A DNA stretch of 64,000 bases from Microbacterium sp. AZCO (GTDB lineage: Bacteria; Actinomycetota; Actinomycetes; Actinomycetales; Microbacteriaceae). The position numbers and the translations under genes were made by a program. Positions 37,964-39,904 of this stretch are shown here, piece by piece. Every line of letters starts with the position of its first letter. Within the stretch, counting starts at the first letter, position 1. The notes under the pieces are model-generated. The model worked only from the letters and a program-made list of their open reading frames with translations. It was not told the DNA's origin and made no database searches. Where the stretch lies: assembly GCF_039614715.1 (NCBI RefSeq), contig NZ_CP154857.1, positions 62,001 to 126,000 on the forward strand. Direction: 5' to 3'.

Positions 37964-37994
37964 GAAGGGCCGGAGTCGTGGACTCCGGCCCTTC
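37964..37994 (+). terminator. guaA terminator
   Basis: Perfect inverted repeat GAAGGGCCGGAGTC (37964-37977), GTG, GACTCCGGCCCTTC (37981-37994). Its right arm is the first unit start of the tandem array that follows. Confidence 0.85.
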
Positions 37995-38199
37995 GCCGTT
38001 TCGCCGCGTCCCCCGGCGTGCCGGACTCCGGCCCTTCGCCGTTTCGCCGCGTCCCCCGGCGTGCCGGACTCCGGCCCTTCGCCGTTTCGCCGCCCGCCCG
38101 GCGTGCCGGACTCCGGCCCCGCGCCGTTTCGCCGCCCGCCGGCGTGCCGAACTCCGGCCCTTCGCCCTTTCGCCGCCCGCCCGGCGTGCCGAACTTCGG
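37981..38199. repeat. Tandem repeat array derived from the guaA terminator arm
   Basis: Five units: 37981-38023 (43 bp), 38024-38066 (43), 38067-38108 (42), 38109-38149 (41), 38150-38191 (42), plus the first 8 bases of a sixth. Each begins GACTCCGGCCCTTCGCC and ends CCCGGCGTGCCG; units drift from left to right (GAC to AAC). Most unit junctions also create GCCGGACTCCGGC, a near-palindrome. It looks like slippage amplification of one terminator arm, located upstream of clpP. No gene in it. Confidence 0.85.
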
Positions 38200-38358
38200 C
38201 TGGATGTGACGAGAGTGGGCTACGGCGGCCGGTTTCACGGTGTGTCGTCACAGCGAGCCGGAGTCGCGCACGCCTCGACGACGGCTCCTCCGCCCACGGC
38301 AGAGCCGCCGCCGGCAGAACCGGCCCCGCGGCATCCCCGACCGACGCAGGCTGGGGGC
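38200..38358. other. Spacer between the array and the clpP genes
   Basis: 159 bp without a gene. I saw no ClgR-type box (CGCY-N-A-N-RGCG) and no clear TANNNT box directly before the ATG. Confidence 0.4.
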
Positions 38359-38982
38359 ATGGCTGAAGAAGGCAAGATCCCGCAGTTCGGGGCCGAGGCG
38401 CGACGCGAGCTGTTCCACCAGCGCGTGCTCGTGCTCGACGGCGTCCTCGACGACGACAACGGCACCCTCATCGCGACGCAGCTGCTGGCGCTCGCGGCGG
38501 AGGACGAGGCATCCGACATCGCCCTCTGGATCCACTCGCCCGGCGGCTCGGTGCCGTCGATGCTCGCGATCCGCGACGTGATGCGGCTCATCCCCAACGA
38601 CGTGGCAACCCTCGCGGTGGGCCTCGCGTGCAGCGCCGGGCAGTTCCTGCTGTCGGCCGGCACGCCGGGCAAGCGCCGAGCCCTGCCGCACGCGCGCATC
38701 CTGATGCATCAGGGCTCCGCCGGCATCGGCGGATCGGCGGGGGAGGTCGAGGTGCAGGCCGACGACCTCCGCCACATGCGTGACACGGTGCTCGGCATCA
38801 TCGCGGCCGACACGGGTCAGCCGGTCGAGCGCGTCTTCGAGGACTCCCTGCACGACCGGTGGTACACGGCGCAGCAGGCCCTCGACTACGGCTTCATCGA
38901 CGGCATCGTGACCGACTTCGCGCAGGTCGTCCCCCGTCGCCGGCGATCGACGGGCCTCGGTGTCGAGGCGGTGGCGGCATGA
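38359..38982 (+). CDS. ClpP-family serine peptidase, catalytic triad intact
   Basis: 207 aa from ATG 38359 (MAEEGKIPQFGAEARRELFHQRVLVLDGVLDDDNG). ClpP family: the triad Ser92 (GLACSAGQF), His117 (LPHARILMHQG) and Asp166 (LHDRW) is complete, with the standard 25/49 spacing. The oxyanion loop is HSPGGSVPSMLAIRDVM. Residues 190-207 are basic and variable. The stop overlaps the next clpP (ATGA). The pair resembles the second actinobacterial clpP locus (Streptomyces clpP3-clpP4), not the clpP1-clpP2 that precede clpX. Confidence 0.9.
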   Translation: MAEEGKIPQFGAEARRELFHQRVLVLDGVLDDDNGTLIATQLLALAAEDEASDIALWIHSPGGSVPSMLAIRDVMRLIPNDVATLAVGLACSAGQFLLSAGTPGKRRALPHARILMHQGSAGIGGSAGEVEVQADDLRHMRDTVLGIIAADTGQPVERVFEDSLHDRWYTAQQALDYGFIDGIVTDFAQVVPRRRRSTGLGVEAVAA

Positions 38983-39587
38983 GCTCGTACACGATCCCGA
39001 ACGTCGTGGCGCAGCATCCACGGGGCGACCGCATCATGGACGTCTACTCGCATCTGCTCGCGGAGCGCGTCGTCTACCTCGGCACGGGGATCGACGCGGG
39101 CGTCGCGAACGCGCTGATCGCGCAGCTGCTGCACCTCGACGCCGACAATCCCGACCGCGACATCCAGCTCTACATCAACTGCGAGGGCGGCGACCCGGCC
39201 GCGATGCTCGCGATCTACGACACGATGCAGCACGTGCGCCCGGACGTCGCGACGACGGTCGTGGGCCAGGCCATCGGCGTCGGCGCGGTCATGCTCGCCG
39301 CGGGTGCACACGGCAAGCGCGCAGTGCTGCCCCACGCGCGCGTCGTGCTGCATCAGCCCGCGGGGCAGGGGCGCGGGGCGATCCCCGACCTCATCCTGCA
39401 GGCCGACGAGCTCGTCCGGGTGCGGGGCGACGTCGAGCAGATCCTCGCGCTGCATACCGGGAAGGATGCCGCGCAGCTGCGCGCCGACACCGACCGCGAC
39501 CGCGTCTTCACGGCCGCCGATGCCGTGGCGTACGGCCTGGCCGACCGTGTGCTCGAGCGGGCCGGGGCTCAGGCGGCGAGGGTGTAG
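38979..39587 (+). CDS. ClpP-family protein lacking the catalytic serine (ClpR-like)
   Basis: 202 aa from ATG 38979, overlapping the previous clpP by 4 bp. The overall ClpP sequence is well kept: VVYLGTGIDAGVANALIAQLLHLDADNPDRDIQLYINCEGGDPAAMLAIYDTM, and LPHARVVLHQPAGQGRG. The nucleophile position is changed: the consensus GQAASMGA reads GQAIGVGA, so Ser is replaced by Gly100 (codon GGC at 39276-39278). His125 and Asp174 remain. It should not form an acyl-enzyme, but could build a mixed barrel with the upstream peptidase. Its 3' end overlaps the XRE gene by 19 bp. Confidence 0.9.
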   Translation: MSSYTIPNVVAQHPRGDRIMDVYSHLLAERVVYLGTGIDAGVANALIAQLLHLDADNPDRDIQLYINCEGGDPAAMLAIYDTMQHVRPDVATTVVGQAIGVGAVMLAAGAHGKRAVLPHARVVLHQPAGQGRGAIPDLILQADELVRVRGDVEQILALHTGKDAAQLRADTDRDRVFTAADAVAYGLADRVLERAGAQAARV

Positions 39588-39904
39588 GCGGCGCGGACGC
39601 CGACGACCGCGCGCTCTGCCGTGCGCAGGCGCAGGTCGTCGGCGACCGATGCGGTCAGCTCGACGAGCGTCACCTCGAGGGCCCCCGCGACGGCGGCGAT
39701 CATCTCGCTCGAAGGCTCCTTGAGGCCCCGTTCGATCTCGGACAGGTACTGGGGGGAGACGCCCGCGCGCTCGGCCGTGTCCGCGAGACGCTCGCCGCGC
39801 TCGTGTCGGAGGCGGCGGAGCAGGTCGCCGAGGGCGTCGCGCCACAGGGGCTCGGGCGCGCGCGGGGCCGGCTTCTTCGTGGGCAGCGGGATGATCTCGG
39901 CCAT
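39569..39904 (-). CDS. XRE-family regulator ending in Leu-Ala-Ala (PopR/ClgR-like)
   Basis: 111 aa. The HTH_3 domain (about 23-80) is DALGDLLRRLRHERGERLADTAERAGVSPQYLSEIERGLKEPSSEMIAAVAGALEV. The C-terminus is AERAVVGVRAAYTLAA, ending in LAA like the ssrA tag. From memory, PopR, the Streptomyces activator of clpP3-clpP4, and ClgR are Clp substrates through C-terminal Ala residues; this protein would fit that scheme. It converges on, and overlaps by 19 bp, the serine-less clpP. Predicted role: activator or repressor of the clpP pair. Confidence 0.85.
   Translation of the reverse strand: MAEIIPLPTKKPAPRAPEPLWRDALGDLLRRLRHERGERLADTAERAGVSPQYLSEIERGLKEPSSEMIAAVAGALEVTLVELTASVADDLRLRTAERAVVGVRAAYTLAA

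Follow-up and report, generated by a model that had tools for sequence, protein, structure and literature searches.

Within a 64,000-nucleotide stretch of the Microbacterium sp. AZCO genome (the window; contig NZ_CP154857.1, positions 62001-126000 of 4.23 Mb), two overlapping genes and a regulator gene on the opposite strand make up a clpP3-clpP4-popR locus. The locus probably encodes an emergency Clp protease built from complementary half-machine rings, in which ClpP4 would dock the partner ATPases and ClpP3 would do the cutting. The gene for the ClpP3-type subunit (38359..38982, + strand) encodes 207 amino acids (aa), the gene for the ClpP4-type subunit (38979..39587, + strand) encodes 202 aa, and the two share the nucleotides ATGA at 38979-38982. 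Both products match Pfam PF00574 (177.5 bits for ClpP3 and 210 bits for ClpP4; cut-off 20.2). The genome contains four ClpPs, arranged as two pairs; clpP3-clpP4 is separate from the clpP1P2-type pair, and it is the clpP1P2-type pair that adjoins a gene for a ClpX-like ATPase.

ClpP3 carries the complete triad of an S14 peptidase, Ser92/His117/Asp166 (alignment columns 181/212/274). In the same three columns ClpP4 has Gly100/His125/Asp174, an incomplete triad. Based on translation and alignment, the nucleophile of ClpP3 is encoded by AGC at 38632..38634 (+ strand), and the glycine at the nucleophile position of ClpP4 by GGC at 39276..39278 (+ strand). An earlier reading of the window (the original prediction) had proposed the overlapping pair, these residues and an unchanged 25/49 spacing of the triad, and the translations and the alignment agree with it on all of these points. 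Its claim that the loss is confined to the nucleophile holds only for the triad, where His125 and Asp174 are kept; residues 68-72 of ClpP4 (39180..39194, + strand) form an altered oxyanion loop, CEGGD, whereas SPGGS occurs in 118/118 housekeeping rows and in nearly all ClpP3. Most ClpP4 of the group to which this protein belongs show the same shift from SPGGS, to CEGGD or SEGGD. A cysteine opens the loop in 51% of ClpP4, the window protein included, and a sister Microbacterium group has SEGGD, with Ser replacing Cys. We take these loop residues to lie at the oxyanion hole and not at the nucleophile, a placement that we made on the alignment.

We built a tree of 727 ClpPs from 390 loci; in this tree, ClpP3-type (279 sequences, support 0.97) and ClpP4-type (277 sequences, support 0.94) subunits form two clades, each separate from both housekeeping sets. 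Among the 274 distinct complete pairs from these clades, 217 overlap by exactly 4 nucleotides. Three-letter codes here denote the residues at the Ser, His and Asp positions, so that the window ClpP4 is GHD. At least one triad residue is altered in 227/277 ClpP4, and 50/277 are intact. The commonest forms are GHD (85), AHD (83), SHD (50), SGD (18), EHN (6) and EHH (5), followed by GHE and SHN (4 each), SHA and WHT (3 each), GND and SHS (2 each), and single cases of GHA, GDD, SDD, FHN, GHQ, SHH, DHD, SDA, ADD, WHD, AQD and SGE. Within the ClpP3 clade, all 278 scorable sequences are SHD, and one sequence is incomplete. Housekeeping controls taken from 60 of the same genomes are SHD in 60/60 upstream and 59/60 downstream genes (119/120 overall). 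The single exception is a ClpP2-type subunit with TQE (L382, the downstream gene of genome G588); the ClpP4 of that genome (L212) is intact, and the disarmed ring is again the ATPase-side one.

The altered residue differs by lineage. Most Nocardia and Actinomadura ClpP4 examined have Ser replaced by Ala, and Ser is replaced by Glu or Trp in further lineages. In another class, Asp is replaced by Ala in L126, L127 and L291, and L123 has lost His too. The original prediction likened the pair to clpP3-clpP4 of Streptomyces, and the named Streptomyces fungicidicus pair (L144) does fall within the same ClpP3-type and ClpP4-type clades; whether Streptomyces shares the same change was a point it set for checking. 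It does not: the Streptomyces-type ClpP4 read keep Ser and have the catalytic His replaced by Gly (S. fungicidicus, with HARVLLGQP, and 18 others of its clade). In family f98 (L213, L224, L232 and others), Glu stands at the nucleophile position and His or Asn at the third, mostly within GQASETAAV; the close relatives of these Glu forms are SHN, SHS and SHH, which suggests that Asp was lost first.

Counts of orthologues, the check proposed for position 100, give the same result at shorter range. A ClpP4 gene matching at 276 bits or more is present in 60/119 genomes of the genus; 53 lack Ser (49 GHD, 2 AHD, 1 GDD and 1 GND), 4 are SHD, and 3 are unscored (L028, L313 and L323). The genes at these three loci and at L183 and L258 were broken in the open reading frame step, and all five stand outside the counts or are shown as unscored. 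Among 80 named relatives, 73 lack Ser (43 AHD, 24 GHD, 2 GND, 2 GHE, 1 DHD and 1 ADD) and 7 are SHD; these 80 were the best-scoring of 507 confirmed matches, so this sample is tilted toward close relatives. By this gene, the nearest named relatives are Microbacterium. A search of a plasmid collection served only as a source of named relatives. In a class-wide sample, 133/393 genomes had a match, at 134 places; of the 133 places read (G241 omitted), 115 were scored as members of the ClpP4 clade, with an intact triad in 39; another 17 fall outside that clade, and L258 is unscored. Beyond the class, only part of the matches was included.

Inspection by eye of a tree for which the triad columns had been masked places the ClpP4 losses of triad residues in at least five separate clades and two single sequences. 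Parsimony gives a minimum of 12 changes if regain of Ser is allowed and 33 losses if loss is irreversible; both figures are inexact, and several deep nodes are weak. Because the outgroup and the basal groups are intact, triad loss looks derived, albeit with weak support at the ClpP4 root (0.51 in the masked tree). Exactly one residue is lost in 199/227 altered ClpP4. Among Ser-less ClpP4 with a CEGGD-type loop, His is retained in 162/166 and Asp in 163/166; both may have been kept for folding, for ring contacts or for binding of substrate. In 27 close relatives (351 pairs each), the ratio of nonsynonymous to synonymous substitution rates (dN/dS) has a median of 0.096 in ClpP4 and of 0.134 in ClpP3; upstream and downstream housekeeping genes gave 0.082 and 0.176, respectively (14 other sequences each). 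The triad change in ClpP4 is old, and the gene is under purifying selection and not decaying, as had been expected. An outcome like that of ClpR has thus been reached repeatedly in the ClpP3P4 system.

The two subunits differ at the N-terminus as well. In untrimmed frames, an axial N-terminal loop motif is present in 265/274 ClpP4 and 0/274 ClpP3; among housekeeping genes, it is present in 59/60 downstream (ClpP2-type) and 0/60 upstream (ClpP1-type) sequences. This recount supersedes one on trimmed sequences (277/277 ClpP4 and 0/274 ClpP3), in which trimming was a possible bias. A looser motif matched 43/274 ClpP3 frames; the matches listed lie mostly before the likely start codon. In the window protein, the loop spans residues 8-21 of ClpP4 (39000..39041, + strand), where the structure model shows a beta hairpin; the ClpP3 model has no such hairpin (predicted local distance difference test scores of the two models, 88.5 and 88.9). 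Matches to ClpP structures in the PDB confirmed the ClpP fold of both models (best E 1.3e-24 and 7.7e-28). The best matches of the ClpP3 model are chains of the Mycobacterium tuberculosis ClpP1P2 entry 4u0g, and later ones include the ClpP1-only entries 4u0h and 6pbu; matches of the ClpP4 model include 4u0g_A, named as subunit 2, at rank 7.

For the docking pocket we assumed the Escherichia coli positions Y60, Y62, F82, I90 and F112 and placed them on the alignment ourselves. In full-length numbering, Y60, Y62 and F82 correspond to Y74, Y76 and F96 (PMC9765437). At the Y62 position, 98% of ClpP4 have Y, and at the F82 position all 277 have F, Y or H. In ClpP3 these docking aromatics are replaced, mostly by W and L, and Arg stands at the F112 position in 48%. 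Across complete pairs, the F82 position is aromatic or His in 274/274 ClpP4 and aromatic in 23/274 ClpP3. Such an aromatic residue is found in ClpP3 of 22/50 pairs with an intact ClpP4 versus 1/224 pairs with an altered one, a comparison not corrected for relatedness. Degeneration of the ClpP3 pocket together with the ClpP4 triad is visible by group.

A gene predicted to encode a PopR/ClgR-like XRE regulator (39569..39904, - strand; 111 aa, C-terminus LAA) converges on clpP4 and overlaps its end. Among NCBIfam models, ClgR fits it best, but the 64.5 bits scored are under that model's cut-off of 170. A PopR-like gene lies on the opposite strand in 231/274 complete pairs, and 224 of these 231 proteins end in Ala-Ala. 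Upstream of clpP3, 40 nucleotides from its start, we identified a candidate PopR-type operator of two abutting inverted repeats (38289..38318, + strand). The published Streptomyces lividans site reads TCTGCC-3N-GGCGAATCTGCC-3N-GGCAGA (PMC9775585). The window site, TCCGCC-CAC-GGCAGA-GCCGCC-GCC-GGCAGA, has the same 6-3-6-6-3-6 layout; as a predicted site, it is identical to the published one at 19/24 fixed bases and different at 5. The published site itself is present in S. fungicidicus (L144). Using a relaxed consensus that was picked after inspection of the upstream regions, we found matches with ≤3 mismatches in 180/272 clpP3 upstream regions (2/274 being too short), 0/272 shuffled regions and 0/272 coding stretches; the unrelaxed published site with ≤5 mismatches gave 121/272 and, after shuffling, 0/272. 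At ≤2 mismatches, the only match in the AZCO genome is at 38289-38318, on both strands. A reversed-pattern control likewise gave one forward and one reverse match, so uniqueness in the genome carries little weight alone, and the weight lies on the position of the site and on the relatives.

Based on these features, we infer the following mechanism in this organism. ClpP3 and ClpP4 would assemble as two stacked rings of one barrel, and all cutting would be done by ClpP3. The ClpP4 ring, presumably non-catalytic, would bear the axial loops and dock ClpX and ClpC, the ATPases that the housekeeping system also uses. While ClpP1P2 works, it would degrade PopR by way of the Ala-Ala tail and the operon would stay silent; if ClpP1P2 fails, PopR would accumulate, bind at 38289-38318 and turn the backup on. 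We propose that the ClpP4 triad was lost repeatedly, by whichever residue changed first, because catalysis on the ATPase side was dispensable, while the fold and the docking surface would have been kept under selection. The sequence-based case for such half-machines is strong.

Biochemistry of the housekeeping pair in other actinobacteria points the same way. Streptomyces ClpP1P2 has full activity with ClpP2 S131A and none with ClpP1 S113A, and docking of ClpX, ClpC1 and ClpC2 depends on the pocket of ClpP2 alone (PMC9765437); in M. tuberculosis, the ClpP2 face is required by both ATPases (PMC4416901). The housekeeping ClpP1P2 of both resembles the arrangement proposed here, with the axial loop and the dock on ClpP2 and cutting by ClpP1. 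If ClpP4 takes the ClpP2 role, its active site would be free to go. The difference is that the housekeeping triads are intact (119/120) and the split is functional, whereas in ClpP3P4 the split is visible in sequence. S. lividans survives as long as it has one of clpP1P2 and clpP3P4 (PMC9765437); if S. lividans resembles the 19 streptomycete-type sequences in our set, clpP3P4 with a His-less ClpP4 would be a working protease.

The locus resembles clpP3-clpP4-popR of Streptomyces in gene order, gene overlap and PopR operator, in addition to clade membership, and S. fungicidicus likewise has a gene for a helix-turn-helix regulator on the opposite strand beside clpP4. There are two differences: the S. 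fungicidicus clpP3 and clpP4 genes share 1 nucleotide, whereas the window genes share 4, and the window ClpP4 has lost Ser and carries the CEGGD loop, whereas Streptomyces ClpP4 has lost His. The cyanobacterial and plastid ClpR is comparable in that it resembles ClpP, lacks a triad and belongs to a mixed core, the mixed core being presumed for ClpP4; however, ClpR is interleaved with ClpP in each ring (PMC4673316), and the ClpP4 losses appear to have arisen within the ClpP4 clade from intact ancestors. Listeria ClpP1, which forms a mixed barrel with ClpP2, also has one triad residue substituted (Asn172), but it gains activity in the complex (PMC9765437, PMC4673316), and Gly100 would have no side chain with which to do so. 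ClpP3P4 has been described as a non-isofunctional backup that is insensitive to acyldepsipeptides (ADEP) (PMC12607617). In a survey published in 2008, 21 of the 121 Clp-like proteins from 91 genomes, including Streptomyces avermitilis with five Clp proteins, were counted as putatively inactive (PMC2605481). Our literature search, whose scope did not extend to the founding Streptomyces papers, found no statement of triad loss in any actinobacterial ClpP4. Given that scope, and because the inactive set of the survey could hold a ClpP4, we make no claim of priority.

Several observations weigh against complementary half-machines. Neither a structure nor an assay of a ClpP3P4 turned up in the literature search. 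With a full triad in 50/277 ClpP4, loss is not required, and 11 of these 50 have a CEGGD-type loop. Ser-bearing ClpP4 with CEGGD-like loops are nested within Ala clades (L078, L299 and L106/L322/L324/L326), and Ser may therefore return by drift among small residues. The pocket of the window ClpP4 reads Q-Y-H-T-A at Y60/Y62/F82/I90/F112 and is only partly canonical, which makes docking the weakest step of the proposal. No PopR-like match was found in 43/274 pairs (39 with ≤1.5 kb of downstream sequence and 4 with 3 kb), and none of the 10 EHN/EHH loci has an operator-like site under 6 mismatches. The Streptomyces set consists of S. fungicidicus and 18 others, and the ClpP4 of S. lividans and Streptomyces coelicolor are not among them. 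E. coli BL21 has its own ClpP, a likely confounder of work in that host. Four ClpPs of Streptomyces cattleya, including two from neighboring genes numbered ClpP4 and ClpP5, each shortened the half-life of RelB2 in E. coli BL21 when combined with ClpX (PMC4989188), a result that is ambiguous given the host ClpP. The four SHN forms of ClpP4, with Asp changed to Asn, may gain activity once in a complex, like Listeria ClpP1 (PMC9765437).

Other explanations differ from complementary rings in how the subunits are arranged or in why ClpP4 changed. An active/inactive mixed barrel, as in the original prediction, is kept as the best reading of the sequences, but sharing of one ring in the manner of ClpR gives way to separate rings, which we consider more likely by analogy with actinobacterial ClpP1P2. 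If inactive ClpP4 alternated with ClpP3 as in the cyanobacterial R-P3-R-P3-R-P3-R, the ClpR/ClpP3 ring of Synechococcus would be the precedent (PMC4673316); this is unlikely, as hetero-ClpPs, for example in mycobacteria and Listeria, are stacks in which each ring is of one subunit type (PMC8182300, PMC4673316, PMC9035409), and an axial loop motif that is widespread in ClpP4 (265/274) and missing from ClpP3 suits whole rings. A role as decoy or regulator, in which inactive ClpP4 rings bind ATPases or mix with ClpP1P2 and slow proteolysis, would account for the kept axial loop and the aromatics at Y62 and F82, and it has a parallel in Streptomyces hawaiiensis, where the dominant accessory ClpP-ADEP disrupts ClpP1 complexes (PMC12607617). 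We regard it as quite improbable, because an intact ClpP3 adjoins ClpP4, coupled by ATGA in 217/274 pairs, and because S. lividans is viable with clpP1P2 or clpP3P4 alone (PMC9765437).

The same architecture could also have arisen by selection for disarming, since an unreactive ClpP4 ring would survive acylating or deregulating poisons such as beta-lactones and acyldepsipeptides. This explanation is doubtful, albeit not without support: the operon would be on exactly when ClpP1P2 is poisoned, a single residue was lost in 199/227 altered ClpP4, and His (162/166) and Asp (163/166) were kept after loss of Ser in sequences with the CEGGD-type loop, unlike the prediction from simple relaxation. In addition, ClpP3P4 is ADEP-insensitive (PMC12607617), and beta-lactones are lethal to S. 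coelicolor without clpP3 and clpP4 (PMC9775585). Folding or ring contacts may, however, explain the kept His and Asp; the reactive Ser of ClpP3 would still be acylated; and fifty ClpP4 keep the triad. In its full form, with ClpP3 and ClpP4 as obligate half-proteases, ClpP3 lacking the docking side and ClpP4 disarmed repeatedly by selected single triad hits with the remainder of the site retained, the idea is a tentative one; if true, an unreactive ATPase-side ring would protect the backup from the same poisons that cause it to be expressed. It is very improbable that ClpP4 retains peptidase activity by means of a different nucleophile. The Cys that opens the altered loop in 51% of ClpP4 and a Ser located one position ahead of the normal site in 9/10 EHN/EHH rows listed (GQASETAAV) are candidates, but Ser replaces the loop Cys in the sister Microbacterium group (SEGGD), residue 100 is non-nucleophilic in the Gly and Ala forms, and the loop presumably lies at the oxyanion hole and not at the nucleophile site. 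The chance of a recent mutation, a pseudogene or a sequencing error is negligible; nothing was found in its favor, and against it stand the absence of Ser from 53/57 scored genomes of the genus and 73/80 named relatives and a dN/dS of 0.096. Ser in most relatives, which the original prediction had named as its refutation, is therefore not what the counts show.

Accounts of ClpP subunits without catalytic function usually concern cyanobacteria and plastids, and the present locus is a defined bacterial operon with a similar outcome. In the scored set, ClpP4 was disarmed several times by different mutations and its partner ClpP3 never. With complementary half-machines, the dock-and-cut biochemistry of Streptomyces ClpP1P2 would become a prediction legible from sequence, and the intact and disarmed pairs are a natural set for asking why a protease ring becomes inactive. 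Work with ADEP or beta-lactones that relies on ClpP3P4 as the backup should also not assume that it behaves like one more standard ClpP pair.

Two single ClpP genes in a streptomycete-like group (f6) have AHD (L388) and PRG (L389); they may represent a ClpP5, a label of our own. Pairs of the clpP3P4 type were found on plasmid-labelled records of Streptomyces, Embleya, Prescottella and Tsukamurella (L144-L147), which raises the possibility of its transfer from strain to strain. A promoter and terminator scan returned no match. Between a guaA-like gene and the PopR-type operator, positions 37964-38200 contain five tandem repeats of ~42 nucleotides each; a 20-nucleotide core of these repeats occurs in 4 copies there and, with 1 mismatch, once elsewhere in the genome.

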